64,000 nucleotides of DNA from Serpula lacrymans var. lacrymans S7.9. Taxonomy: Eukaryota > Basidiomycota > Agaricomycetes > Boletales > Serpulaceae. A model generated the notes under the pieces. That model made no database searches. It was not told the origin of the DNA and saw only the letters and a list, made by a program, of their open reading frames with translations. The position numbers and the translations under genes are program-made. Shown here piece after piece: positions 5,261 through 53,660 of the stretch. Position 1 is the first letter of the stretch; every line of letters starts with the position of its first letter. The DNA is taken from positions 2,180,897 to 2,244,896 of the forward strand of contig NW_006763292.1 in the NCBI RefSeq assembly GCF_000218685.1, written 5' to 3'.

Positions 5261-6139
5261 TCAGTCAAAACGGAAAACCTGTTCAACGATGCCCCTGTTC
5301 TTTCGATCCGTCTGAAACAAGAGAAAACATTAGGATATATGAAAGACAGTATTACGGTTCACGTACTCGCTGGTGATAGAGGATATAGCATGTGCATTTA
5401 AAAACGACCTCTAGGTCAAATGATAGGAACGACACACCCACTAACGATGAACGGAACGATTAATTACTCGAAATTCAATTTGAGTTGGTGATTGGGAACA
5501 CGTACTTCCTACAATGTATCACCAGGATACCAGTTACTTCAGCACATAATGCTCAAATATTAATATTTTATGTCTTACCATCTAGATAGCATTGGTCACG
5601 GCGGTATGCAAAACAATATGGCTGTAAATTTTGTAGAAAGGTTGACGACGATAAAACGTACAATCTGTAATGAGATTCAGTTAGCAAGGGTCCCGCCTTC
5701 CAATACATGAAATGGTTGCAAACCATCTGCAACGGAAGTAAAGGATTTAAAGAACTCAGGGCCGGCTGTACGAATGCATGAAGTGTATCCTCTGCATACA
5801 AGCAAACAAAGGATCTGCAATGGTAAATGCGTTCGATAAAAGAAAGCACGCACCACCTAATAAAGAAGAGCAAAATAGCGTTAGGTATATGTTAATAACG
5901 TAGCTCAAAATATAAGAAGTACCTTGCGGATTTCCTGGCAATATAATTGAGGTATGAATGTCAGTGAACAAATTAGTAGAGATGATGCCAGCTAATAACC
6001 TCATCCTGGAAACATAAGAGAACACAGACTTAACAGAAATATGCAAATAGAAGGAACGAGAAAGACGAACTTTCTGTAAAAAATGAGAATAAACACCAGA
6101 ATAAACAATGTGTGCCCAGGTAAAGGGGCAAAAGAACTC
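5261..6139 (-). other. Diverged downstream micro-exon units and terminal exon
   Basis: Triplets continue beyond the repeat core: 6071 AAA, then a 6-nt exon 6000-6005, a 12-nt exon 5923-5934, 5854 GTG, 5724 ATG, 5662 ATT, 5579 ATG, 5506 GAA, 5438 TGG and 5367 CGA, followed by the terminal exon 5261-5311 with TGA at 5261-5263. The stretch 5727-5853 is ambiguous: a 15-nt exon at 5800-5814 would leave a 39-nt intron beside it, or it may be skipped. Either choice keeps the frame. The last intron (5312-5366) has a clear CTAAT branch and a TTTCAG acceptor. Confidence 0.55.
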
Positions 6140-9100
6140 ACTGTCTGAAAATATCATATCAAGTGTGATAGTCAACAAAATGTCTGGTTTGCAAAGGAAC
6201 AAGAGAAACATACAAACTGAGAATATCACCAACGCCATGATGTCAGCCAAATGTTTGACACGCAAAGGGACGAGAGGAACTTACAGGCTGAAAACATCAC
6301 CCAGGCCTTGGCAGTCAGTCTGGCGCACAAAAGGAGAAGAGGAACTTACTTGCTGATAATGCCGTCAAGGGGATGACAATCAGCCAAATGTCTGGCTTGC
6401 AAAGGGATGAGAGAAACTCACTTCCTGAGAATACCATCAAGGGTATGACAGTCAGCTAAATGTCTGGCTCACAAAGGGACGGGAAGAACGTACAAACTGA
6501 GAATATCACCAACGGCATGACAGTCAGCCAAACGTTGGACAAGCAAAGGGACGAGAGGAACTTACAGGCTAAGATTACCCAGGCGTTATGAGTGCCAAAT
6601 GTCGGGCAAGAAAAGGGACGAGAGGAACTTACTTGCTGAGAACGCCACGAAGGGCAATGACAGTCAGCCAAATGTCTCATACACAAAGGAACAAGAGCAA
6701 CTTGCACGCTAATGACATCATCAAGATCATGATAGTCAGCCAAATGTCAGACACTAGCACGCAAAGGGACAAGAGGAGCTTACACGCTAAGGACATCACC
6801 CGGGCCATGACAGTCAGCCAAATGTCTGGCACGCAAAGCGAGAAAAGGAACGTACCCGCTGAGGATGTCACCAAGGGCATGGCAATCAGCCAAATGTCTG
6901 ACGAGCGAATGGAGAGGGAGAACTTACGCGCTAAGGACACCACCCAGGCCATTACAGCCAGCAAAACGTCTGACACGCACCAGAGATGAAAGATACGTAC
7001 ACTCTGAGAATGTCACGAAGGGTATGACAGTCAGCCAAATGCCTGACGTGAAAAGGGAGAAGAGAAACGTACATACTGAGAATGTCACCACGGGCATGAC
7101 AATCAGTCAAATGTCTAGCATGTAAAGGGACTAAAGGAACATACACCCTGGGAATGCCACCAAGGGCATGATAGTAAGCCAAATGTCGGACACGCAGATG
7201 GGGCGAGAGGAACTTACACGCTAAGGACATCACCAAAGGCATGGACAACCATCCAAATGTCAGACACTGACATGCAAAGGGACGAAAGGAGCTTACACGC
7301 TAAAGACATCACCCAGCCATGACAGTCAGCCAAATGTCTGGCACGCAAAGAGATGAGAGGGACGTACATCCTGAGATTGTCATCAATAGTATGGATAGTC
7401 AGCCAAATGTCTGGCTTGCAAAGGGACGAGAGGAACATACAAGCTGAGAATGTCACGGAGGGCATGACGCTCAGCCAAATGTCTGGTTCGTAAAAGGACG
7501 AGATGAACACACCACCTGAGAATGCCACCAATGGCACGAGTCAACCAAATGTTTGACACAAAAAGGGACAAGAGCAACTTACATGCTAAGGACACCACCA
7601 AATTCATGATAGTCAGCCATATGTCTGGCGCGCAAAGAGATGAGAGGGACATACATCCTGAGATTGTCACCAATAGCATGACGGTCAGCCAAACGTCCGG
7701 CCCGTAAAGGGACGAGATGAACGCACCACCTGAAAATGTCATCAAGGGCATGACAGTCAACCAAATGTTTGACACGGAAAGGGACAAGAGCAACTTACAT
7801 GCTAAGGACATCACCAAGGTCATGATAATCAGCCAAATGTCTGACGTGAAAATGGACAAGAGGGACATACAATCTAAAAAAACTCCCAAGGGCAAGGCAA
7901 TCAGTCAAATCCGTGGCACCCAAGAGGACATAAGCGAACGTACAACCTAAAATGCCACAAGGGGCATGACAGTCAGCCAAATCCGCAAGAGGACAAGAGG
8001 AACGTACGTCCTAAACCGCCACAAAGGGCAGTCAGCCAAAAGTCAGGCACTGCGAAGAGAAAAGAGCGACATACGTGCTGAGAATGTCATGAAGTTCGTA
8101 AAATATGATGTGGGTGAGCCAGCTGAAGTATTTGCATAGAGTGGTTTAATCGTACATACTGGTAAATACAAGAAAGTTAGCAAATACTTCGGCGGTGTAG
8201 CAAACATAAAAGCTTACTTTCTAAAGCATCATAAGGGCCAGAAATTCTCAGCGGAAAATATTGTGGGACAAAATTGCGAGCAACCTACATACTGCAGGAA
8301 CAATGTCAAGTCAAAGCACATAAATTGATTAGCCATCAGGTAGCATGGGCAAGGACAAACGACGCACAAACTAATCCAATGATCTTATTCATCAGCGACC
8401 ATTTATAAATACATTAAAAGTACTTACATTCTATGTGTGTGGTCAATCTCTTCAAGTGCAGGCTGTATGTAAGTGGAACACGTACTTGCGACGCACATGC
8501 GGAGATAGATCAGGTCAAATTTAGTCTGTATCATTTTGAACTGACTCACAAGCTGTTGATCAGAGTGGAATAAAGCGGATTTTAGGTCAAATAGCCTTGC
8601 ATTTAAAGCTTGGACTACGCACTAGCTAATAATATATAAACTTAAGAGTGAGATAAATGCACGGTGTGAGTACTATACATACTAGCTAAACCCAATTTCA
8701 ACAGGGCAAAGGTTCAGGATACTTCATCGTCATGGACCATGTTAGAAGGGAGAAAATTCGCACATAAGTATGGACTAGCATATTATTTAGGCTAGTTAGC
8801 GTCAACAGCAAACCTTGAGGGTACTTCGAGAGTTCCTACATAGAGTTGAATCAGATAGGCTTCACATCAATATTACGGCTTACTTGAGGCGAAAAAAGTG
8901 GTGCTTCCTTGTATATTGTGGCATTCATATTATTCATAATCATAGAGTGCAACCAAGGATCAAGGGAACTACTGGCAAAGTTTGTCAGAGAATCTTTAAG
9001 TAAAAAAATTAAAGACAAGTCCGAAGGATATCGCTCCTCTTCAGACAATGCTTTGTGCAGGTGATTCAACCACTCCTTGACAGCGTACGACAATGGTTGA

Positions 9101-10826
9101 ACCCCAAACCAGAACTCCGCCTTGTTTCTTTCTATGATATTCAGACAATTAATGGCAATGGAGAGGTGACGAGTAGGGGGATTGATGAAATAGTTGCCTG
9201 AACGTGCTGGAGCCAACAAAAAATCCTTTAAAGAAGTGTGAACCAGTTGCACCAGATCGTCATCAGATTCGGGAATGAGGAGGATTGACTGAATACTAAG
9301 AAAAATCTCTACAAGGCGTCGTGAGGAAATATTTAACAAAGAAGCGAGATGCTTGATGGGTAGTGGATCTTCAAGAAGGAGGAGGGTGCCCATTATCTGC
9401 ATGAGATCGACCATATTTCCAGGTACCCCGTCCGGATACAAAGCATTCGAGAACACCTGAGAATACAGATCATCTAGGCCATGTGCCTTTAGTGCGTCCA
9501 GAAGTTTCCGGTGCGGCATCCCCCCTGCTCTACTAACAAAATCGACGAATGTGGACGAGTAGATATAGGATCCCGAAGCTTCTTTGACGAGAGTGTCAAG
9601 GACTTCAGACGAAGGCCAAGGCTCTGGTACCTTATCCGTGGTCATAAGTAGGCGATTCGCATCATATATTGTTTCGAACTCGGACTGGAAAAACATGCGG
9701 ATATCTCCCGCAGCGTTGAAGTTTTGTAGCTTCAATTGAAGTGTAAGATTTCTGGCGTTTCGAGTTTCGAGTTTTTTACGGAGATATTCTTCAACCCTGC
9801 TAGTGATAAAAAGACAAAAAGGAACCCGACCATTCCTGGCCCCACAGGCATCGACTACAGCATCAATGAATTCATCCATTAATGTTCTGTCCTGGTGTCC
9901 ACACTCGTCCAAACCGTCGATAACGATCACCATGCGTTTACGCTTGAAAAAATTTCGTATACGTTTTGAGCATGCAAGCATGGGTTCCATGATGAGTTTG
10001 TCAAACTGGTAGCTGAGTGGAGTGTTCAAAATGGAGGGTTCTTTATTGAGGGCATTTTGTAACAACGGTTCCATGCCTCTGACTGTAGTCGAGAGCTGAA
10101 AAGCGAGCGTTGGAATAAGATGGGAGATTTTGTCTCGATTTCCTATTCCTCTGAAGAAGAAGAAACTGGCGGCAAGTTTCCTCTCGTCAGCACACCATTC
10201 CGCTATAGTCTGCGCGATAGTTGATTTTCCAGATCCAGCAGAGCCATTTAGCCAGCAAATTGGAAGACTAGTACGGTCCGCCCATTTTTGGATCGTCTCG
10301 AGGACATCCTTCCGAGTGCCTTGCAAACATCGGGCCTTTTTCCCAGAGCGATTCTGGTACGAAGCATTGACTGGTTGTAGCAGCTGGTGTAAACCAGGTA
10401 TGGCTGACCCCCGATAACTGAGCTCAGATCTCAAGGCTGATAAACACCACACACCATCAGGGCTGCCATGAGTAACATTCGTGACGTTGTGCACAACGGG
10501 CTGTAGACTCCCAGAAAAATCGCTGAAAATGCTGTGTTGAGCCTGGGTGTTGTTGGAATTATTGAATACGCCAGCAGTGGGCACTAGAGAGGTGCGTTGC
10601 TTGATGAAGCGAAGATCTCCAGACGTTTCACCAGAAGTGTTGTGGTGAGACTGTGGTATGGATACTGTGTTGATTACGAGGCATGGGGAGGGAGCCTGAG
10701 ACCTGAAGGATGAACATAGGTATATAAGTAGGATATCAGTAACTTATTAGCACTCATTCGACTATTGTAGCGCTGGATTTCTCTATGACCAAGGCCCTTG
10801 TTCATGTCAACATTGATATCTATCAT
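5261..10826 (-). CDS. NACHT-domain (NLR-like) protein with a tail of single-codon micro-exons
   Basis: Exon 1 is 10744-10826 (start uncertain) and the NACHT exon is 8884-10702. The P-loop reads GSAGSGKSTIAQT, Walker B VIVIDGLDECG, and an NTPase sensor-like stretch CLFITSRVEEYLR follows. NACHT proteins are STAND ATPases used in fungal non-self recognition and cell death; usually WD40, ankyrin or TPR repeats follow. Here the large exon ends in phase 0 at a GTAAGC donor, then exons of 22 nt (8814-8835) and 11 nt (8764-8774) restore phase 0. I then read 45 exons of exactly 3 nt down to 5367, plus exons of 6 nt (6000-6005), 12 nt (5923-5934) and possibly 15 nt (5800-5814). The terminal exon 5261-5311 reads TDRKNRG... 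to TGA. The total is about 53 exons and 717 residues. If the first tail intron (8836-8883) is retained, translation stops at 8851. The NACHT part is secure; splicing of the tail is inferred. Confidence 0.68.
6140..8080 (-). repeat. Tandem array of about 72-bp units, each holding acceptor, 3-nt exon and donor
   Basis: About 27 imperfect direct repeats lie between 6140 and 8080. Successive units are mostly 70-73 bp apart (range 64-79). On the minus strand each unit reads donor GTAnGTTCC, then a stretch containing ACATTTGG, a branch-like CTGAC about 28 nt before the acceptor, then CTCAG or CTTAG, three variable bases, and the next donor. Position:codon of the triplets includes 8075 CAC, 8008 GAC, 7944 GTT, 7871 ATT, 7799 CAT, 7727 GTG, 7655 GAT, 7583 CAT, 7513 GTG, 7441 CTT, 7368 GAT, 7297 CGT, 7218 CGT, 7145 GGT, 7073 TAT, 7001 AGT, 6928 CGC, 6856 CGG, 6784 CGT, 6706 CGT, 6633 CAA, 6566 CCT, 6494 TTT, 6422 GAA, 6350 CAA, 6285 CCT, 6214 TTT, 6142 ACA. 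The unit at 6706 has a GC donor (GCAAGT). Confidence 0.85.
8081..8885 (-). other. Diverged upstream micro-exon units
   Basis: No sequence repeat is obvious here, yet the same AG-NNN-GT arrangement recurs at similar spacing: 8683 CTA, 8623 CTA, 8550 CTT, 8482 TAC, 8429 AAT, 8368 TTT, 8289 TAT, 8218 AAA and 8156 TAT (first base of each triplet on the plus strand, codon given for the minus strand). Donors include GTGAGT, GTGCGT, GTATGT, GTAGGT and GTAAGC; the one at 8482 (GTGTTC) is weak. The longer exons 8814-8835 and 8764-8774 connect the NACHT exon to the triplets. Confidence 0.62.
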
Positions 10827-10966: not shown

Positions 10967-12176
10967 CTACAAAGGACCAAGATTTTCCCAAATGGCATGG
11001 TTTAAGACATTAGATGAAGATCCGTCAGGTGCCAGCGTCTCTAAATTATCCTTGTCGTCGGCAATTTTGTCAAGCCATTTGGCTGCACCTGAGAGGTTGG
11101 CAACTTTTGCACAAGCCGCATGCAAGGCCGGGAGTTCCCCAGACGGGAGCGGAAGGTTGATGGGATCCGACGAAGTGAATGTAACCGTATGGGGCACTAC
11201 ATAACCTCTTCTGGCTGTACAGACACGATAACAGTTAAGAGATGGCTGTGTATAGATGCAATGACCCAGCACAAGAATCCAAGAATCCAGCCTACAACTC
11301 ACAGTCTTCTCAAACCACATCTGTAATCGATCGAACCAGTCGTGTACATCCTTCTCCATCGTCATAACGTTGAAAAGAGAATGGAATTTTTCACCATTCA
11401 GACTTTCAATGTTGTAGCCAAAGTGCTTTAAAACGGCCAACGCCGACGAAGAATAATCCTTCTGGACAGCGATGAAGCCAATGTCAATATCAATTATAAC
11501 ACAGAATAACAAACCTCTGCGCTCGTGTCCGTATCTGTTTTGGCTGAAATGTTGAAATACACAGAATCTGGTATAATGTGGGCACATTCTGTGTTCACGA
11601 TGCCGCCGGCGTCGAGCACTTCAGTCAATGTAACAATTGACAGATCTTCTCCTTTGACGTCGTATTTCCCAGTCACTACGCATCGGAAACCGTCTCGGAT
11701 AAGGGCCTTGATATAATGTTTTGAATCCAACAGCAGATAGTGAGTGATACAGAACAATTGCGCACCTGTTCTTTGGCTTCTCGGTGATAAGACGAAGCCG
11801 GAGTTCTTCCTTTAAAATTTTTGACTATTCCGTGATTAAGCTGAATGTATTCAGTGATCATGATTAGTAGCGGATTGGTAACTTACATGGGCGGATGAAA
11901 TGGTCGAGGAAAAACTCTCCCAATGAACACAGGTGTTGTTGCTTCCCCTCAGGAATGTATCTCTTTCGCCATCCCGTGCATTGCCCGAATAGACGGCGCC
12001 TTGAGAATCAAATAACCCAAGATTCTCGCGTACATGACATGTCGGTCGTTGGAAGCAACAGCTTTCTCGAAGTCCAGACAGACTTGATAGGCGCCGACAA
12101 CATGAGTGTGGACAGGATCATCTGGTGAAAGAAGATCCTCAGCTTCCGCGACGGGGGGAAGGCTAACCGCGACCAT
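10967..12176 (-). pseudogene. HNH_2-type nuclease-like gene with a frame break
   Basis: Exons read as 11887-12176, 11766-11824, 11515-11706, 11303-11461 and 10967-11245. The HNH region contains ALIRDGFRCVVTGKYD and, further on, TECAHIIPDSVYFN. HSLFNVMTMEKDVHDWFDRL and the C-terminal DGSSSNVLNHAIW match the large Agaricomycete family annotated as HNH nuclease domain proteins, whose cellular role is unknown. The first exon begins MVAVSLPPVAEA and carries YARILGYLILKAPS, but hits TGA at 11949, while the downstream frame (QQHLCSLGEFFLDHFIRP) is one base out. Summed exons are 979 nt, not a multiple of three, and I find no plausible intron to repair it. Either a single-base indel has broken the gene, a sequencing error is present, or the start is wrong. 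It lies 140 bp upstream of the NACHT gene on the same strand. Confidence 0.72.
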
Positions 12177-13357: not shown

Positions 13358-13988
13358 AGATGTCCTGTGGCGTTTTGTGGGAGGGACTTGCTTTGGTATC
13401 TTTTTCAACCATCTTACCACGTAATCATATTTTTGACATATGTCAACTTCATACGCACCAGCGGTTTAACAATTTCCAAAACTGTACACGGCCCTATCTG
13501 CTCTTGAAAAATATTGAAATGGACTGAGAAGGCCGATCAAGAAGACACAACTCTCAAATTCCATTGTTACGTTCATTTATTGGTTTGTTTGGTAAAGGTT
13601 GCGTATACCCTGATGGGCCCCCTGTAATAAGTGATGATTATCTCAGGTACTGTAGCTGGCATCCGAAGTGCAGTCAGCGACACCCGAGTCCTTGGTTGGT
13701 GTAACTACTAACTGTCTAACCTAACTTACTTACCCTCACTACCCTATGATATGGACTTGCTAGTGGGCTCCGGGATAGGCAGCAACTTGTCAATGTACAT
13801 ACAGTCTACGCACGATTTACTAAAGCGAATTACGGTCTCACTTGTCTAGAACTGTTCGTACCGCAACTGAGTTTCAACCAGCCTCTAAGCCGAAAAGGAT
13901 GATCCCATCCAGGTTAAAAGATGAGTCCTGTCCCTGTCCATGTTACATTATTCTGCTTCTACAATTGCTACACCACCCAGGCCTAAAC
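13358..13988. other. Intergenic region upstream of the NRPS
   Basis: This holds the 3' UTR of the RRM gene and the promoter of the NRPS. The reading frame of the NRPS stays open upstream to 13842 but has no ATG before 13989. A pyrimidine-rich stretch lies directly before the start. Nothing else is recognisable. Confidence 0.4.
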
Positions 13989-18641
<4,653 letters not shown>

Positions 18642-29904: not shown

Positions 29905-30820
29905 ACTTTTCATGGGACGTTGATTATCTAGCATCACCTTACCAACGATAAGCATAAGAGGTGCTTTGCAAGCTTAATGGTATTCGTGCTAAAATATTAC
30001 CACAGCAATTGTGCTTCGAGTTGAATATAGATTATTCCTGTCTGGTCGAGTTTGGGCATGTCGGTCGTGCCAACAGTACTCATTGGGGGAGTTCCCGTAA
30101 AGAGAGTGTTCGGCAGTTGCTATCTGCAGGATTTCCCCTCCATTCAACTTCACAACTTCAAACTTATCGTGCTACAAGTAAAGTGTTTTACTTCAAAGTT
30201 CACATTCGTCTGTTAGAAGCAAGAATACACCTCATTCAGCCCTCTTTTCACTGACAAACTTCCACCACCCTGTCACGGTAGTCGACAACTAAGTCTCTCG
30301 ATCTCAGGCTTTCTATGCGTGTAAGTGTGGTTGGTATCACTTCGCGTGTAATATACCTAGAAAGGTCTTTGAAACGCTGGGTGAGTTCTATTTTGACGTG
30401 AGTTCACCAAATAGTAACACTGCTACCTTTTAGGACAGATCATCCTGAACTCAGTTCCCCGAACTTCTAGTGCGATTGTCATTGCGGAGAAGAGTCACCT
30501 GTGCCATCTAAACTTGGGCGATGATGACCGAACCACTTCTATGTGTGGTTCATCATTTTGAGTTCTTCTTCGTATCAGAATCTTCTGGTGAGACCACTGT
30601 CCGTTAATGTCGTGGTAGGTTCCGGCATGGAAAAGACAACAAGACCTTTCAGGAGACCTTTTTTTGTCATTGACTATTCTTTATAAGTACATTCACTCGG
30701 CATGGATGGCGACCGCTCTTGGATGACCCTGTAATTGTTCGTGAGTAAGATGATCAGCGTCTAGAAGGTACGCAAGATTCTTGATTGCCTAGCTTCTGAG
30801 CTATTCGAAGGCCATCTTCA
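29905..30820. other. Intergenic region, no supported gene
   Basis: About 0.9 kb after PEX1. Open frames are short and show no family signature. I see no repeat or RNA gene. The 3' UTR of PEX1 and the distal promoter of the DUF6534-like gene should lie here. Confidence 0.35.
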
Positions 30821-30821
30821 T

Positions 30822-30988
30822 TTCTGGTCGCGGATGCAGTGTACAGCAATCCATCCATCGTGATATCTTCAACTGACCCGGGCAGAACTTATATAGTCCC
30901 CCATCTATTTTGGTCGCAGATGCACTATACAGCAATCCATTCATCACGATATCTTCAACTGACTCCGCCAGAACTTATATAGCCCTCC
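30822..30988 (+). repeat. Two-copy direct repeat in the promoter of the DUF6534-like gene
   Basis: Two copies of about 80 bp stand side by side (about 30822-30905 and 30908-30988). Both carry tggtcg...gatgca, acagcaatccat, gatatcttcaactgac and gcagaacttatatag-like text, the last being a TATA-like box. The second copy ends about 55 bp before the predicted start codon at 31043, so the duplication doubles the core promoter. Confidence 0.7.
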
Positions 30989-31042
30989 ATCTCAGCTTGG
31001 TCGAGGCGTTAACCTCTACTCTCACAATCTCACCCACCCACC

Positions 31043-36757: not shown

Positions 36758-39700
36758 TTACCAGGCCATAGCAGCGATAATTGACTAGAGAAAACGACAA
36801 ATGGATCAACCTTGCAAATCGAGGGAAATCTACTGGGTGAAACAGACCACTAACCTTTGGGTAATTCCTCACAATCGCCTTTCTGATTTCATCCATGATC
36901 AACACACCCAAAGCAAAGCAGAACGGAAGGCCCCAGAACATCCTCGGTATAGGAGCCGTCCCAAATACGCTATTCAACCCCGGTCCGTACAGGTTGACGA
37001 CTGCGATGAGAGCAGTTCCGATCATGCCAAGAGGGACTACGAGGTTGCGACGGGGACCCCAAAGAGGGTTGGAGTTTAGGATAGACACACGTCGGTTGCG
37101 CACAGAAAGCAGGCTCCCACACTGCATGAACACGATGGTCACGTAGCTAGAGTTGCGATCGATCGTCAGGAACGGGTATTGTTAGCGTGAACAGGGTTAC
37201 ATACTAGATGCACTGGCCGACGTTAACGAGTTGCGTCAGATCACTTGTCGAATGGCCTTTCCACCCGTCCGTCCACTTGTTGTAAACCAGGATAACGTCG
37301 TAAAAGCTGAGGCCATGTTGGTGCATGTACAAGAACCACATACTCATGGCACACGGCCATATCATCAGCCCTATGAACTAAAGCCAACTATTAAACACAG
37401 GCTGCACTACCAGGGGAGAAAACCACGTACAAAATAAACCTGCACGAAAAACCGCCAATCACTCAGACGGTCAGTCCTCGCGTTCCGCGGCTTTCGTAGC
37501 ATAAGGTCTAGGCAGCAGTCAAATGAAGGCCTCAAGAACGTGAGCGAGCATAAACCCTACCCGCTTCAGGCTTCTCGTACATCAACGAGATCGACATGAC
37601 CACGTCGTTGGTAATACAAAAACAGACTTGTAAGTACGAGCTCATCGGGATTTGCATGCCGAAGAAAACGGTTCCTAGCACTGCCATGAACTCCGCGTAG
37701 CTTCCAGCCTAAATTAACAATTGTCAGCGAAACGTCCACAACACGGCTCTGATTGATATGTAGAAGCTTACTGGCGTCAAGTAGAGAATGACCTTTTTCA
37801 GATTGTCAAATACAAGCCGTCCCATTTCAATCGCGACAGGGATGGACGAGAAGTCATTGTTGAGGAGAATGAGGGAAGCTTCATAGGCATAGGGGCACAT
37901 GTTCAAGCTCTGCGCACCGTGGCATACAACTAGCCCTGCTCACCTGCTTCTTTCGCAACATCGCTCCCACTTCCCATCGCAACACCAATATCGCTAGCTT
38001 TCAGAGCAGGTGCATCATTAACCCCATCTCCTGTGACCGCGACGGTATTGTCTCCGCGGGCTTTGATTTCTTCTACAATCCTTAGCTTCTGATCAGGGGT
38101 CGTCCGTGCAAACACAATTTCTGTATATCGACCAACAATGATATTCCAATCTTCAGGACTAAGAGAGGCTACATCATCTCCGGTCAGAACAAGCGATCGA
38201 ATCGGATCGTCTTCAGACGGTTTAACCGCAGAAAGCGGAACGACCGAGAACTCCTTGGAGTAATCTGAAACCCTGATATTACTGATGGTATCAAGATGAT
38301 CTTGTGTGACGATCCCAACCTGAAATTAAGGGTAAGCGCGACGACTCTGAATCTATACAATGGTCAAATACCTGGCGTGCAATGGCCACGGCAGTAAGCT
38401 TGAAGTCTCCCGTGACCATGAATACCCTAACGCCCGCTCTTCTAATCGTCACAATGGCGGACGGAACATCGGCACGCGGGGGGTCCCGAATACCAATGAT
38501 CCCAACCAGCGTCAGTCCTTGCACCTCCGCATACATCATCTCCTCCATGTCGTTTGGCGATACATTCGTCTTGATGCCATCCAGCTGCTTCCGACAGAGT
38601 GCGAGCACACGCTGTCCTTGATCAGACCATTCATTTTGTAAAGCAGATATGCCTCGTCTCGCATCATTGCCAAAGGGTACGATGGTACCATCTGTGTTCA
38701 TGATGCTTTCGCATGAGGGAAACAGAACATCTGGAGCACCTTTGACGAGCAACCACGGTTCAGAACCTTTCTCACCCGATTCTTGGCAATGGTTTACAAC
38801 CGTTAACATCCATTTATTTCTGGAGTTAAAAGGAATCTCGAAGGTCTTCTTCCACGAAGAAAGTAGAGCTGTAGTGTCGACATCAAGACTAGGTATAGAC
38901 AATGACTGGGAGAAGCGCAGAACAGCTGAATCTGTCGGGTCGCCTTTGACAGTAGGCTCTTCGATGGGAAGGTTTTCTGATGCAGCGTTAAATTTGGCAC
39001 CATTGCAAAGTCTAGCAACCATGTGTAAGGCTTTCAATGCTGAGAATCGACCAGGTTGAGAAGCACTGGAAACTACTTTTGATATATCTCCAACTCGTAA
39101 CGATCCGTCAAAAAAAGCGACATCTTCAATAGACTGATATATAGCTTAGCATCCATTCAGGTAAAAGATACTGAAAGAACTTACCATTTCTCCTGCGGTC
39201 AACGTGCCTGTCTTGTCTGAGCATAGGACCGACATGCACCCGAGTGTCTCTATGGTTGCTAGATTCTTGACGAGAACGTGACGTTTAGCCATGCGTCTCG
39301 CGACAACTGTCAAGGACAGTGCGACACAAACAGGAAGTCCCTATAATAGCACAATTAAATTGATTGTGTTAAACCAAAGCATCGAAAACAGACCTGAGGA
39401 ACAAAAGAGGTAAGGCATCCAATCGAATTAATGATAGCACCGCTAGAGGTCTCGTAGCCAGGAAAGGATGTCCTGAGCCACACGCCCCAAAGGAGGATAG
39501 ATATACCGAACAAGGATAATGCAAGGCCAGATATGATCTTCGTAAAAAACCAGACCTCTCGCTGGATAGTTGTCATCTTGAACTTTGTGTCACCAGACAT
39601 CGACACGATACGACCCATTACTGTTCTGTCACCAGTAGCAAAGACCACTCCTGTGCAGGTCCCTTGTACCACGAATGTAGACGTGAGTGCAAGGTTGCGT

Positions 39701-40658
39701 GTCTCGAGTACGTTGTCGGAAGTCGCGTCTACGGCCCCAGGAACCATATCACTTGGGGTGAATCATTAGGCTGGTGAAAATTTGATTAATTGAACGCTAC
39801 TGTTACCTTTCTCCGGTGAACAAAGAACGATCGAACCGAAGATCGGGAGTCACTTGAACGAGTCTCAGGTCGGCAGGTACGCGATCCCCAGTACTCAGTT
39901 GGACGACATCTCCAACGACGACGTCTGAAGCTGGGATAACCTGTTGCTTACTGTCTCTTATGACTACAGCCTCTTGAGCGACAAGTGATTTGATGGACTT
40001 CATGATACGAGAGGCATTCCAATCCACAAAAGCGTAAAACGTCGCAGACACGATGATCACTAAAATCTGAAGTATATGTTAAAGAGCGGGGTAATATGCA
40101 AACAACAAACATACTAATAAGACCGCAACACCGAGATTAAAAACAGCAGGAGATGGAGCCCCTAGCGGTTCATATGACAGCTGAGACCATTGATGAGGAC
40201 GGAAAGTTACATGGAATTAAAGATTACGTACCAGAGACAATATAAACGCAATCCACATGAGGAAATTGAAACCCCCAAAGATATAGTTGATAATTTTCTT
40301 CCAGTACTGAGTTCGAGGAGGTGAGAAGACATTTTTACCACCTTTAGCTCTGCGAGTGACAGCTTCAAACTCCAGACCAACAGATGGGTGACTCGAATAG
40401 CGCGTGAAAACCTCTTCCGAGCTGATGAGATGAACGTCAATATTCACAAGACCTTCAGTGGAGTCCTTTGAAGGTTTTGACGTAGGTTTTGACGTAGGTT
40501 CTTGGTCATCAATGCGGACAGAGAGGGTACGGTAACTGAAGAGACAAGCAATTAGGTGAAACCATTGAGCGTTATCAACAGACTGACCTGATCTGAACGT
40601 CATAGCCGTCTGAAGAAGGCTGAGAAGTACCTTTCGGTACTTTGGGGAAACGTTCCAT
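36758..40658 (-). CDS. P-type cation ATPase, Na+/K+-ATPase alpha-like (copy 1)
   Basis: Fourteen exons: 40588-40658, 40232-40535, 40115-40180, 39807-40066, 39394-39751, 39185-39340, 38372-39133, 37944-38319, 37772-37878, 37561-37708, 37431-37507, 37205-37377, 36855-37146 and 36758-36784 (3177 nt, 1058 residues). The phosphorylation site [11 protein letters not shown], the actuator loop (TGE-type, SLFTGER), KGAPD nucleotide-binding text and the hinge [20 protein letters not shown] identify an active P-type pump. [13 protein letters not shown] and the helix 4 text FVPQGLPV resemble type IIC Na+/K+-ATPase alpha subunits, a group with members in fungi. It should move alkali cations across a membrane; ion choice cannot be read. 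The N-terminal region has a small internal duplication ([10 protein letters not shown]). The intron layout is the same as in copy 2 at 48784. Confidence 0.92.
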
Positions 40659-41115
40659 TGAAGACGAAGTTGGCCCTATAGTTTGTTCGGCCTTAATTAT
40701 TTATGTAGCCGCCTCAACATCCCTTTAAAGATAGGACGAGTTACCATATCGCGGAAGCGACCTTGAGCGGTTTTTGCTATTCCATAGCAAGGCGCTCGAG
40801 TGCTCTGCGTGTATTTCGCCACAGAACGCTGTCAGTCTCATCAGCATGCTGATATTTTGATATTTTGATGGGATACATGCGCGCAGCCGTGAAGCAGTCG
40901 CTGTAAATGACCTAGAGAATCCATAACCTCTCAGTTCTCAATGAAAGACACACTGACAGAACAAAGGAGGAAAGGAGTGCGTTAACCTAACCCTACCGAA
41001 CAGTGACTGGATTACATAATTCTGGCGGCATCCCGCGGCTGGCTGGGCATTTTCTCCAGCGCCTCTGGAGACCAACGTTGATCTCATACTGTGACGCTCA
41101 AGTTTCAACTGTGAA
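40659..41115. promoter_or_regulatory. Divergent promoter, ATPase copy 1 and pseudouridine synthase
   Basis: A 457-bp region between opposing start codons. It includes a short direct repeat gatattttgatattttgat at about 40851-40870. No other feature is visible. Confidence 0.35.
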
Positions 41116-46600: not shown

Positions 46601-48783
46601 TAATGAGGAGCTGGACTTTTCAACGATGGCCGGGAGGTGTCACCTCTCACATCGCCGAGTAAGGCTGATAACCGCTCAAGTTGCTCTTGCGTGAGGATCA
46701 TTCCGGCTGTGTCTCGATCCAAGGATCCCAATTATCACAAGAGACACGATGGACTATGCGAGCCTTGAGTGAGGCTGCACTGCACCAGTCGAGTGAGACC
46801 GCAACGCAAGTAGTAATGAGAATGCAATACATTGCCTAAGAAAATCATGTGTGAGCTGTGGTAATAGTAAACGAGAGGATTGGGAGTTTACGGCCAGGTT
46901 GGGCAGACACGGGTACGGGTTTCAGAAGATCCATACATTAAAATTTTCCAGCTCAACAAAAATAGATATTCATATTCTGCAAGCCTTTGTTGCATTTTCT
47001 GATCCCATCTCTGCTCTGATTCACATATGAAGACAGTTAGAGATGATGCAACGCCACATTGAAACCTGCTGATATTTTAAGGGAGGATATCCGCTTGACT
47101 CTTGATGCGAACAAGCAAACAAAACTAGGATTAGATAATAGCACCAGGATGATAGCACCAGTGCAACACAGTCGACTTACTCATACAATGTGAGACTTAG
47201 ATTAGATGGATAGATTGCAGTTGCGCTGTCGGGTTTTTGGCATGCGTCAGACAATATAGCATATTGCCAGTCGTGGTTTGTTGTCATTGCAGCCACCTCG
47301 AGAGTAAAACTTGCTTCGTATTTGGATATGATCAGACACGAACGAAGCACATTCGACTCAATGAAAACTCACTTGCCAACTTTTCCATTCTTAAAGCTTG
47401 CATAGTTCAACCAGGTCAATTCCCTTATTTTTTGCATCCAATGCGCGTTTTCAAATTGAATGTTATGAGCGAGTTTAGTTTATTCAAAAATCCGTTTGTA
47501 CACAAGTTTCGCCTCTTGAACGGGGATTCGATGCAAGGACTAGCATCCTGTCAAGCAACGCCAGCCCAGGCCAGGTTTGAGAAAGCAACTTGAAGGCGGC
47601 ATGGTGATGGAACGAGTTCAAGCGGCATCATGATTATTCGCAGCCCGCGAGTACTCTGGATGGCGTCACGGTCACGGTGGCGCAGTCGTCCTCTGAGTCC
47701 TTCGTGTCAGCCTGAGTGGTACCAAAGTGTGTATTTTGTCTTTGCTGCAAGCTCGAGTAACAAGAAAAGCCTCGTTACCTATGTAATAGAAGATTCAAGA
47801 AGACATTTCACACTATGATGGTTACGTTTATTGACCTTCTTTGTTCTATACCAGTGCCATCTTGGATTATGCGATTCAACAGGTTATGATATCGTCTTCT
47901 GGCTTTTGGAAAAAGCCGCGGCGCATCTGATTTTACTGCAACTTGTGCTTGTAGAAAATTTCATGTGTAAACAGATGGCGATTAAACACCCCAGCAACGG
48001 TTCTAAAAGGAGTACCATTTGTTCTACTGTTGGCGCAGCTACTAGTACAAAACCATCATACTCCTGCCATACATGATCATGGTACCTTATGATAGGTTCG
48101 TTGTGGCGTTGTGGCTTGAGCCAACGAATGGGAATGGTGAGTCTAATCGATTTGACCACAAACATGTATTAATATCGTGTAGCTAATACAAACTATATTT
48201 TCAAGCTGACTCGGATGAATTGAATTATGGACAGCGAATCATGAACATCGGTAATATGGGTACGCTCGCTGTTTTCAGTTCCCCTTGTATTCCAGATATA
48301 TTGAAGTACACGTTCATGTGTACCAGGTTTATTATATCACGTTTAGCATGATCGGTCTTGATCGTTTTCAATGGTTCCTGGAACTTTACTCCCTTAAGGA
48401 ATCTATTGCTCTGGCCATCAGTACTGATATTTCTCACCACGGTTGAGGGCTGTCATCCAACACAGTGCGCGGCATTTGTACTTCAGCTCAGCAAGGCTTA
48501 TCTCATTGACAGGTATTACAACCTGAGTGAATAACACTCCACATGGCGGGATCTAAATCAATATCCAGTGAACCCATACCTACATCAGAAGTTTTGGGTG
48601 AATGGCGAAAAGGACGCATTTTTTCAGCGCCGACTGCCATGGAATGGCAAAAAGGGCGCAATGCATCAAGCTACTACAGCGCCAATTGTCTCGTCACTGC
48701 CGCACATCAACAATGGCTCAAGATAAGAACGAGCCGTGCCAATAAATATGCACAGCGCCTCACGATAATTCTCGCTACCTACC
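43617..48783. other. Gene-poor region, no supported gene
   Basis: 5.2 kb without a reading frame or exon chain that I can assign. The longest open frame is 149 codons on the minus strand (44374-44823) and has no family look. A minus-strand frame at 46013-46342 (109 codons, LGKRHHIVVRGMFGYML) is the most protein-like, but no neighbouring exons extend it convincingly. A short CAT/ATC microsatellite lies at 46427-46450. The rightmost few hundred bases should be the promoter of ATPase copy 2. Decayed transposon sequence is possible but not recognisable by eye. Confidence 0.4.
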
Positions 48784-51700
48784 ATGTTACGGTCTCGCCA
48801 GCATAAAGACACCAGCCAGGCTTCTTCTCAGACTGCGCCAGGGTTTGGCATTCAAATAAGGTTAGTCAGACGAGGTTCTCTTTATTTATTTTTTGCCGAA
48901 CTTTTTCTATCTAGCTATCGGACATTGTCAGTCCGCGTAGATGAGAAGCAAACCCAAGTGAAGCCTCCAACAGACCCAGCCGCTGGTATTGCAAATATCG
49001 ATGTTCATCTCATCAGCTCAGAAGAGGTTTTTACCCGCTATTCGACCCACCCTTCTGTAGGTTTAGAGCCTGCTGCGGTACAACGAAAGTCCAAGGATGG
49101 CAAAAATGTCTTTTCGCCTCCGCGAACGCAATATTGGAAGAAGGCCTTGAACTACATATTTGGAGGTTTTAACTTCCTTATGTGGATTGCGTTCATCGTT
49201 ACTATAGTACGTGTGTTCTAAACGACGCTACAGTCCAGCTTTACCAATAAATATATTTAGTTGTCATACGAACCGCTGGGGGGTCAAAGTCCTGCCGTCT
49301 TCAACCTTGGCGTTGCTGTCCTTTTGGTCAGTCCAGTGTTCGCACCATCTACGCATTTTTTTTACGTTCCTCGTAGATGTTGGTGATAATCGTGTCCGCG
49401 ACGTTTTATGCGTTCGTGGATTGGAATGCCTCGCGAATAATGAAGTCTATCAAGTCGCTTATCGCCCAAGAGGCCGTGGTCATAAGAGACGGTAAACAGC
49501 AGATCATACCAGCTGCAGACGTCGTCGTAGGAGACATTGTTGTGCTCAACTCTGGTGATCGTGTGCCAGCAGATCTGAGGCTTGTCCAAGTCTCTTCTGA
49601 TCTTCGATTTGATCGTTCACTGTTGACTGGAGAAAGGTAACCTTCCTTTCATTAATATGTCCGCCTAATTAATCCCCGTTTCAGTGATATGATTCCAGGT
49701 GTTATAGACGCCACATCTGACAACGTACTTGAGACTCGCAACCTTGCCTTGACATCCACATTTGTCGTGCAAGGGACATGTGCCGGAGTCGTCTTTGCTA
49801 CCGGCGATAGAACAGTAATGGGTCGCATTGTTTCCATGTCTGGAGAGACAAAATTTAAGATGACTACCATCCAAAAAGAGGTCTGGTTTTTCACGAAGAT
49901 CATCTCTGGTCTTGCATTATCGTTGTTCGGTATATCTATCCTCCTTTGGGGTGTGTGGCTCAGGACGAGTTATCCTGGCTACGAATCTGCCAGTATTGCC
50001 ATCGTCAATTCCATAGGGTGTCTTACGGCGTTTGTACCGCAGGTAAGCCAGTAAATTCTCACTGAGAAACACTCTGACAGTAGCTCACCAGGGTCTTCCC
50101 GTATGTGTTGCATTATCCTTGACTGTCGTCGCGAGGCGAATGGCGAAAAGACACGTCCTTGTCAAAAACCTTGCGACTATAGAAACGCTTGGGTGCATGT
50201 CTGTGCTGTGCTCTGACAAGACTGGCACCCTGACTGCTGGAAAGATGGTTAGTTTCTGTTGCTTTTGCTGCTGGACAGTATGCTCATGGTATGCTAGTCC
50301 GTTGAACACGTTTCGTTCCTCGACCACAGCCTGAGCACTGCGGACATATTCGACAGAATAATTGACACTCCAGAACCTCATTTATTCTCCGCACTGAGGG
50401 CCTTGCACGTGGTGGCAAGGCTCTGCAACGGTGCTAGGTTCGATGCTGCGACTGACAATCTGCCCGTTGAAGAGCGCATTGTCAAGGGCGATCCCACAGA
50501 TACAGCTGTTCTCCGCTTTTCAGAGTCAATGTTCATCCCTAGTCTCGGTATAGACACCACAACTCTGTTATCTTTGTGGAAGAAGGTCTTCGAGATCCCT
50601 TTCAACTCGAAAAACAAATGGATGATGACGGTCGTAAATCAAGGTGCAGCCAATGCTTCTGAGAAAGGTTCCGAACCATGGATGCTCGTTAAAGGTGCCC
50701 CCGATGTACTGTTCCCCTCTTGCGAAAGCATCATGAATATGGATGGTAGCGTCGTACCTTTTGCTGGAGAAGCGAGAGACAGTCTATCTGCTCTGCAAAA
50801 CGAATGGTCTAGTCGAGGACAGCGCGTGCTTGCACTTTGCCGGAAGCAGGTGCACGGCTTCAAACCGAACCTGTCACCCAACGATATGGAAGAGGCGATG
50901 TACGCTGAGATGCATGGGTTGACCTTGGTTGGAGTCATCGGTATTCGTGATCTCCCTCGCCCTGATGTTCCTTCTGCCATTGTAACGATCAGGAGAGCGG
51001 GAGTCAGAGTATTCATGGTCACGGGCGACTTCAAGCTTACTGCCGTGGCCATTGCACGCCAGGTACGTATTGATACAATAATGCAGAGTCTTTGCACTTA
51101 CATTTGTCATAGGTTGGCATCGTCACGCAGGATCGTCTTGATACTATCAACGATGTCAGGGCTTTTGCTTCCACCAAAGAGCTGTCAGGCCTTCCACCTT
51201 CCGCGCTCAAGCCGTTAGATGATGAGCCCATTCGATCGCTCGTGTTGACCGGAGACGACGTTGCCTCGCTTGGACCTGAAGACTGGAATGTAATTGTTAC
51301 TAAGTACACCGAGATTGTATTTGCACGTACGACTCCCGATCAAAAGCTAAAAATTGTAGAGGAAATTAAAGCTCGAGGAGACAATACTGTGGCGGTTACA
51401 GGAGATGGGGTCAACGATGCACCTGCTTTAAAGGCTAGCGACATTGGTGTTGCGATGGGAAGCGGCAGTGACGTTGCTAAAGAAGCAGGTAAGTTTGTTC
51501 CGTTGCGTATTCTATCATTCATGGCTTAAATATATACTTCATAAGCTTCCTTGATCCTCCTCGACAACGACTTCTCCTCCATTCCTGTCGCTATAGAAAT
51601 GGGGCGTCTAGTATTCGATAACCTAAAGAAAGTTATTCTGTACCTCATGCCCGTAAGTTACATCGTGTTGACACTCACGATCAAGATTCAACGTCTTTAC

Positions 51701-52949: not shown

Positions 52950-53660
52950 ACTATATCCAAAAGTAATAATATAGTTGCACAAACCTGTACTTAGATAAAC
53001 AGTTTACCAGAACTATACTGTAATGCAACAATTTGGTTTTCCAAGACTATACCATGGAAACAGGGTATTAAAACCATACCATAGTGATATGGATATATAC
53101 AACTATACTTTGATAAATGGTGTGGTAAAACCATACTGTAATACACTGCTATGGTTGCATAAGACTGTATCTGGGTAAACAGTGTATCAAAACTATACTA
53201 CTACAGTACAGTAATATGGGTGTATGGGACTGTACTTCAGTAAACAGTATATTGAAACCATACTATAACATACTACCTACTATGGTCATATAAGACCATA
53301 CCTTAGTAAACAGTTTATCAGAACTATACCATAGTACAGTAATATGGTTGTATAAGACCATATTTTAGTATATAGTATATTAAAACCATACTGTAAGATT
53401 ACTACTATAATCATATAGGACTATACCTTAAGAAACAGTATTTCAGAACTGTACTGTAGCATAGTAATATGGTTATATGGGACCATACTTCAGTAAACAG
53501 TATATTAAAACTATAATACACACTATAGTTTCATAGGACCATACTTTAGTAGACAGTGTATCAGAACCATATCATATTTAGATTATATGGTTTCACAAGA
53601 CCATACTTCAATAAATAGAATATAGAAACTATACTATGATAAACAGTTTATAAACACTAT
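52950..53660. repeat. AT-rich satellite with about 62-bp period
   Basis: About eleven degenerate copies follow one another. Each holds agtaaacagtatat, then aaaaccatact, a variable ctact stretch, then atatggttatataagacc and atacttt. The key words recur every 58-68 bp (for example agtaaacagt at about 53186, 53240, 53308 and 53492). The words ccata and tatgg make each unit partly palindromic. Decayed versions continue to about 54230. Confidence 0.75.

Follow-up and report, generated by a model that had tools for sequence, protein, structure and literature searches.

Predicted gene organization of the locus

The analyzed DNA (the window) is a 64,000-nt stretch of contig NW_006763292.1 of Serpula lacrymans var. 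lacrymans S7.9, the dry-rot fungus, a basidiomycete of the Boletales. Its minus strand carries an NLR-like gene whose NACHT exon is followed by acceptor-NNN-donor triplets, which span 5367-8685 with intron-sized spacing. The features predicted for this gene are listed below in the direction of transcription.

8884..10743, minus strand: NACHT (STAND/NLR-like) exon, 620 aa, open up to the donor; based on the ORF, Pfam, and the N-termini of paralogues
8836..8883, minus strand: predicted intron 1, 48 nt, GTAAGC...TAG; the homologous intron is spliced in public models of the sister locus L009
8764..8835, minus strand: predicted 72-nt exon, 24 codons, ELSKYPQGLLLTLTSLNNMLVHTY; a similar open frame is found in ten loci, L009 included
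8156..8685, minus strand: 5' edge of the array, nine predicted single-codon exons CTA CTA CTT (TAC) AAT TTT TAT AAA TAT
6071..8077, minus strand: core of the array, 29 predicted single-codon exons with hypervariable codons and introns of 61-76 nt
6026..6028, minus strand: weak single-codon exon TCT with an AAG acceptor
5923..5934, minus strand: predicted 12-nt exon GAAATCCGCAAG (EIRK); paralogue homologues KIHE, KTRN, and KLRE
5367..5856, minus strand: 3' edge of the array, predicted single-codon exons GTG ATG ATT ATG GAA TGG CGA
5261..5311, minus strand: predicted 51-nt exon TDRKNRGIVEQVFRFD with TGA; paralogue homologues are open to a further donor

The NACHT exon matched the Pfam families NPHP3_N (9e-26) and NACHT (8e-9), both over the cut-off, and its open frame contains the P-loop. 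Upstream of the P-loop, no in-frame ATG was found in this ORF, and the ATG that aligns with the start of the paralogues lies in another frame. An upstream exon may be used, or the gene may be damaged; damage is suggested by the start codon together with the last exon, which is out of step with the paralogues. The evidence obtained at the level of the gene family is independent of the state of the window copy.

Intron 1 is homologous to the junction at which the public gene models of L009 (P0002 and P0003) join two exons. The 72-nt exon, which reads ELSKYPQGLLLTLTSLNNMLVHTY in the window and ELSRYPQSLQSTLTSLNNMLGQTI in L010, replaces two exons of 22 and 11 nt proposed in the original prediction, as its frame is open and similar in ten loci. 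The in-frame model of the window comprises 46 single-codon exons and 47 introns; the earlier estimate was about 45 such exons. Paralogues conserve the D/N, F, and K positions of the 5' edge and vary at its first three; at the 3' edge, Ile, Trp, and mostly Arg are conserved. Two of the 46 triplets (TAC at 8484-8482 and TCT at 6028-6026) are weak, having AAG acceptors only. Several parses are possible for the stretch 6070-5730, where a 6-nt exon GATGAG at 6005-6000, recognized by reading, is an in-frame alternative to the TCT exon. The 51-nt exon had been taken as terminal; it does end with TGA at 5261 in the window, but its paralogue homologues remain open beyond this point, so that the TGA may be specific to the window copy and the exon is perhaps not the true end of the family.

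The predicted tail of 88 aa gave zero Pfam matches at E <= 0.1. WD40, ANK, and TPR repeats were matched neither in the 620-aa NACHT exon nor in the 88-aa predicted tail at the same threshold; the gene is therefore NLR-like by its NACHT part only, as no C-terminal superstructure-forming repeat was matched. An ORF just upstream of the NACHT gene (10967-11620, minus strand) showed an HNH_2 match below the threshold.

Related loci in the genome

The genome (42.6 Mb, 29 contigs) was searched for NACHT and then at the DNA level. Fifteen NACHT matches were obtained, and ten loci were found to carry an array: the window, L010, L011, L012, L013, L014, L015, C6b (contig C6, 2.785 Mb), C11, and C6a. C6b, C11, and C6a were detected through the DNA searches. 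All but one of the nine further arrays lie near a related NACHT exon. The remaining one, C6a, lies on the strand of the L016 NACHT exon, about 13 kb downstream of it, and an insertion presumably split the two. The tandem unit of one codon plus one intron recognized in the window is supported by comparison, with nine more loci of such design. L012 combines an array with a NACHT frame of 521 aa and a start-like ATG that aligns with the start of the paralogues.

An array was present at 10 of the 11 close loci examined, a count that excludes two partial relatives (C5:2187815-2189075 and C7:2155688-2156158). At six NACHT loci that are more distant, the 10 kb on the downstream side contained no array. 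L009 has the first two single-codon units only, and its early intron runs straight into the intron beyond the array; the loss looks like an intron-to-intron deletion. A search of plasmid records with the NACHT exon gave no match.

The number of predicted single-codon exons is 46 in the window and ranges from 16 to 29 in each of eight further loci. The array of L014 consists mostly of 71-nt units. At one site the exon measures 3 nt in certain loci; others have an in-frame exon of 12 nt there. The NACHT frame of C6b is broken. In C6a (L060, C6:2525700-2527250), the units are shortened and what is left of the 72-nt exon contains stops, which makes this locus a natural decay control; at least these two loci, C6b and C6a, are probably decaying, as judged from their sequences.

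Eight public proteins were returned, five of them Serpula-named, and none has the tail as predicted here. Current gene models appear to miss the single-codon arrays, since a chain of single codons is carried by 0 of the 5 Serpula-named proteins. The public model P0004, from an L010-like locus, illustrates how automatic annotation handles such a region: part of the array is read through as a 24-residue repeat.

Spacing of the triplets and exon parsing

Tandem repetition with a period of 72 was called at 6318-7982, that is, within the core of the array. The spacing of splice-like motifs was evaluated by counting [CT]AG-N(k)-GT[AG]N[AG]T for k = 0-30, with 300 dinucleotide shuffles per region. 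At k = 3, the tandem core contained 20 matches, its 3' flank 6, and its 5' flank 8 (shuffle means of 0.18, 0.08, and 0.09, respectively), giving a total of 34 vs 0.35 expected. Each other value of k yielded 0 or 1 match per region. This excess bears out the recurrence of acceptor-NNN-donor triplets noticed in the original prediction. Since both flanks lie outside the tandem-repeat call, the triplet pattern is not merely a by-product of repetition.

Exons were also delimited by a dynamic programming parser with generic splice matrices, hand-set from the consensus and untrained. The parser was indifferent to exon length up to 60 nt, required AG and GT/GC, and ignored stops. With no length preference, 40 of the 48 exons parsed in the window were 3 nt long vs 1 of 37 on the opposite strand; a version without any length term returned 40 exons of 3 nt among 50. 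Over nine arrays, 3-nt exons made up 215 of 279, compared with 8 of 253 in the controls, for which eight loci (the regions following L009 and L016 plus six distant NACHT loci) were pooled with the window's opposite strand. Three of these eight control exons came from L009, which keeps two real units. The descriptive exon models force lengths to multiples of 3, and the length test came from separate parser runs. The k = 3 excess and the parser controls rule out chance or an opposite-strand signal; the triplet array on the minus strand is real.

A real array could still be a long intron or a 3' non-coding stretch with an expanded intron-like minisatellite, the triplets of which are untranslated. 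The tandem repetition of the core and the absence of the predicted tail from all eight public proteins returned are in favor of this explanation, whereas the persistence of the k = 3 spacing in flanks outside the tandem-repeat call speaks against it. Further evidence comes from the triplets themselves and is given below.

Predicted splice signals and intron lengths

The predicted introns of the window have 46 GT donors and one GC donor, as well as 45 YAG and 2 AAG acceptors, GT/GC and AG being a condition of the parser. In 35 of the 47, a branch-like YTRAY motif was found. Over the nine modelled loci, donors were GT in 247 of 250 introns and GC in 3, acceptors were CAG (166), TAG (78), AAG (5), and GAG (1), and YTRAY occurred 12-55 nt before the acceptor in 177 of the 250. 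When 33 core units were aligned, the T and A of the branch-like CTGAC and the donor +5 G, which are scored by the parser but not required, were invariant, as were two further T columns; the AG and GT/GC columns are invariant by construction, being a parser requirement.

Alternatively, the array could be translated without introns as a repeat of 24 residues (72 nt), leucine-rich or similar. NLRs usually end in repeats, open stretches of up to about 170-200 aa cross the arrays, and P0004 reads part of its array in this way. Against this, the predicted intron lengths over nine loci are spread over all remainders modulo 3 (89, 82, and 79 for remainders 0, 1, and 2), so that no frame runs through the introns, and the mostly 71-nt units of L014 do not keep the frame either. 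The invariant branch-like T and A and donor +5 G of the core units are likewise at odds with a continuous repeat, and no Pfam match was obtained in the read-through part of P0004. As unit lengths break the frame, a coding 24-residue repeat was rejected and is considered scarcely credible.

Codon behavior of the triplets

No stop was found in the 232 triplets of nine loci, compared with 8.7-11.5 expected, although related units are non-independent; the original statement that all triplets are sense codons thus extends to the single-codon exons of the paralogous arrays. The edge introns differ by 0.25-0.37 between loci, and some of the adjoining edge codons are conserved. The TGG exon of the 3' edge was kept in 8 of 8 loci, with the reservation that TGG also served as the anchor of the 3' alignment and that L015, in which none was found, was omitted. 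All 12 differences in the edge Ile codon (ATT/ATC) were synonymous, and positions 1 and 2 of the edge F exon were unchanged between loci. Free variation was seen in exons 1-3 and 7 at the 5' edge and in a single exon at the 3' edge. Pooling the eight leading and six trailing triplets by order gave differences of 0.40, 0.34, and 0.41 at the codon positions vs 0.258 in introns, which indicates conservation at single positions and not of the edges as a whole. By eye, the conserved positions read roughly K-D-F-Y-K before the core and I-x-K-W-R after it.

The core was analyzed using the 29 nearest unit pairs, every unit being used once (mean intron difference 0.106). Differences were found at codon position 1 in 19 of these pairs, at position 2 in 17, and at position 3 in 9. 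The codons differed in 22 pairs, never synonymously, according to a list read by eye. Where an array had at least 13 core units (six arrays), codon positions 1 and 2 were more variable than each of the 361 two-column intron windows. Among the small arrays (6-8 core units), windows reaching positions 1 and 2 numbered 2 of 48 in L010, 28 of 58 in L011, 26 of 58 in L015, and 1 of 61 in C6a, and in these four the triplet excess is not clear, or weak. All six large arrays had a position 3 more variable than the intron mean, and in five of them it was less variable than positions 1 and 2; third positions vary as much as positions 1 and 2 in C6b and L010. The compared units were picked by a parser that demands AG and GT/GC.

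Taken as codons, the triplets are hard to reconcile with the untranslated minisatellite introduced above. The 0 stops in 232 triplets, the conservation of some edge codons with synonymous changes, and the excess of positions 1 and 2 over all intron windows in six arrays all oppose that explanation, which is accordingly regarded as improbable. The comparisons support the view that the triplets behave as translated phase-0 codons.

The triplets could also be spliced codons whose variation in the core is non-adaptive: conversion would homogenize the introns while old codons are retained, or the triplets would be a mutational hot spot. The introns of neighboring units within one locus can indeed be almost identical, and since third positions also exceed introns, part of the variability effect could be mutational. 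On the other hand, third positions change less (9 of 29 vs 36 of 58 at positions 1 and 2), and collinear core units of different paralogues differ by 0.63, 0.61, and 0.45 at the three codon positions vs 0.225 in nearby introns (198 non-independent pairs). Because even collinear core codons differ between paralogues, they are not simply left over from before the introns were converted, and codon retention is not favored as the sole cause. Non-adaptive variation of the core is rated as rather unlikely, though it deserves more weight than either of the preceding alternatives.

Proposed structure and function of the array

The explanation that we consider quite likely is that the array forms the 3' portion of a receptor-like NACHT gene and that splicing joins some 45 predicted single-codon exons into a C-terminal tail, conserved in part at its edges and hypervariable in its core. 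Each unit would consist of one intron and one codon and would be duplicated, deleted, or converted via recombination inside the introns. Any such event would add, remove, or swap exactly one amino acid, because every exon holds a single codon and the breakpoints are buffered by introns. The array is thus likely to let the fungus vary the receptor tail by one amino acid with the frame intact. The introns of about 70 nt would be taken out by short-intron splicing (intron definition), perhaps successively, since a 3-nt exon is too small for U1 and U2AF at once.

The tail is probably a recognition surface. Its conserved edge positions would anchor it and the core would meet the ligand, with selection for new binding specificities keeping the core codons diverse. 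By analogy with other fungal NLRs, the tail may have a role in non-self recognition. Alternative skipping of single codons, always in frame, is possible. Tentatively, and with more doubt than confidence, one may go further and suppose that each variable-region residue is encoded by a cassette exon of its own, that recombination in introns edits the germ line one amino acid at a time, that skipping of exon subsets produces combinatorial in-frame tails from one gene, and that the system has arisen separately from the truffle NACHT-ANK genes.

Comparison with known systems

The truffle Tuber melanosporum belongs to the Ascomycota. Its nank (NACHT-ANK) genes contain dozens of 3-bp microexons, according to the relevant passages of PMC3689799, PMC4986451, PMC9815663, and PMC10197012; passages of later papers credit these microexons to Iotti et al. 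2012 (Fungal Biol 116:261, pmid 22289772), and alternative splicing of the microexons is reported in Tuber. With these genes on record, the original view of 3-nt exon arrays as without precedent does not hold. As far as these passages describe them, they share with the Serpula loci a fungal NACHT receptor gene, dozens of codon-sized exons (predicted in Serpula), and a proposed diversification of C-terminal recognition. Unlike nank, the Serpula gene has no ankyrin match in the NACHT exon or the predicted tail, and it was not placed in the nank family, since no ANK match was obtained at E <= 0.1. Set beside nank, the Serpula array, known from sequence alone, has a basidiomycete host, tandem units of intron plus codon, and a hypervariable core. 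Neither a basidiomycete array of 3-nt exons nor such a hypervariable core was found in the open-licence literature, among the matches listed. What is new here is a basidiomycete array without ankyrin matches, with tandem intron-plus-codon units and a hypervariable core, arrays of 3-nt exons being already known from Tuber.

Fungal NLRs such as Podospora hnwd are described in passages of PMC9815663 and PMC10197012 as having highly similar C-terminal repeats. In hnwd, as presented there, a C-terminal recognition region is varied by recombination among similar repeats, with selection on few positions per repeat, which resembles the Serpula array; however, the hnwd repeat is a protein module, whereas a Serpula repeat would encode a single amino acid and carry an intron.

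Aphid bicycle genes and schistosome micro-exon genes have many small exons, which are longer than 3 nt, and no NACHT. Like the Serpula array they are fast-evolving, but they encode putative effectors of animals; for the bicycle proteins, fast evolution is described in PMC9168663. Fungal exons of 1-3 nt are mentioned in passages on Dactylellina lipS (two 3-nt exons; PMC5639578) and Fusarium CYP621A (one 1-nt exon; PMC12940212), where they are isolated and do not form arrays.

If spliced as predicted, the array would provide frame-safe protein variation, turning repeat instability, which is normally harmful in coding DNA, into single-residue change. Serpula would then represent a second fungal phylum whose NACHT receptors use codon-sized exons. 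With ten such loci in a single genome, intron definition, diversifying selection, and the way in which 3-nt exons are spliced can be studied.

Other features of the window

An NRPS-like gene is located at 13824-18641 on the plus strand, with AMP-binding, methyltransferase, phosphopantetheine, and condensation domains in successive open frames. Two P-type cation ATPase genes, alike by eye, lie about 8 kb apart in opposite orientation (38291-40675, minus strand, and 48769-51218, plus strand). A ubiquitin-conjugating enzyme frame is present at 473-1045 on the minus strand. Two further repeats were detected: an 86-bp repeat in two copies at 30820-30992 and a 62-bp tandem repeat of 7.4 copies in an AT-rich stretch at 53175-53634.
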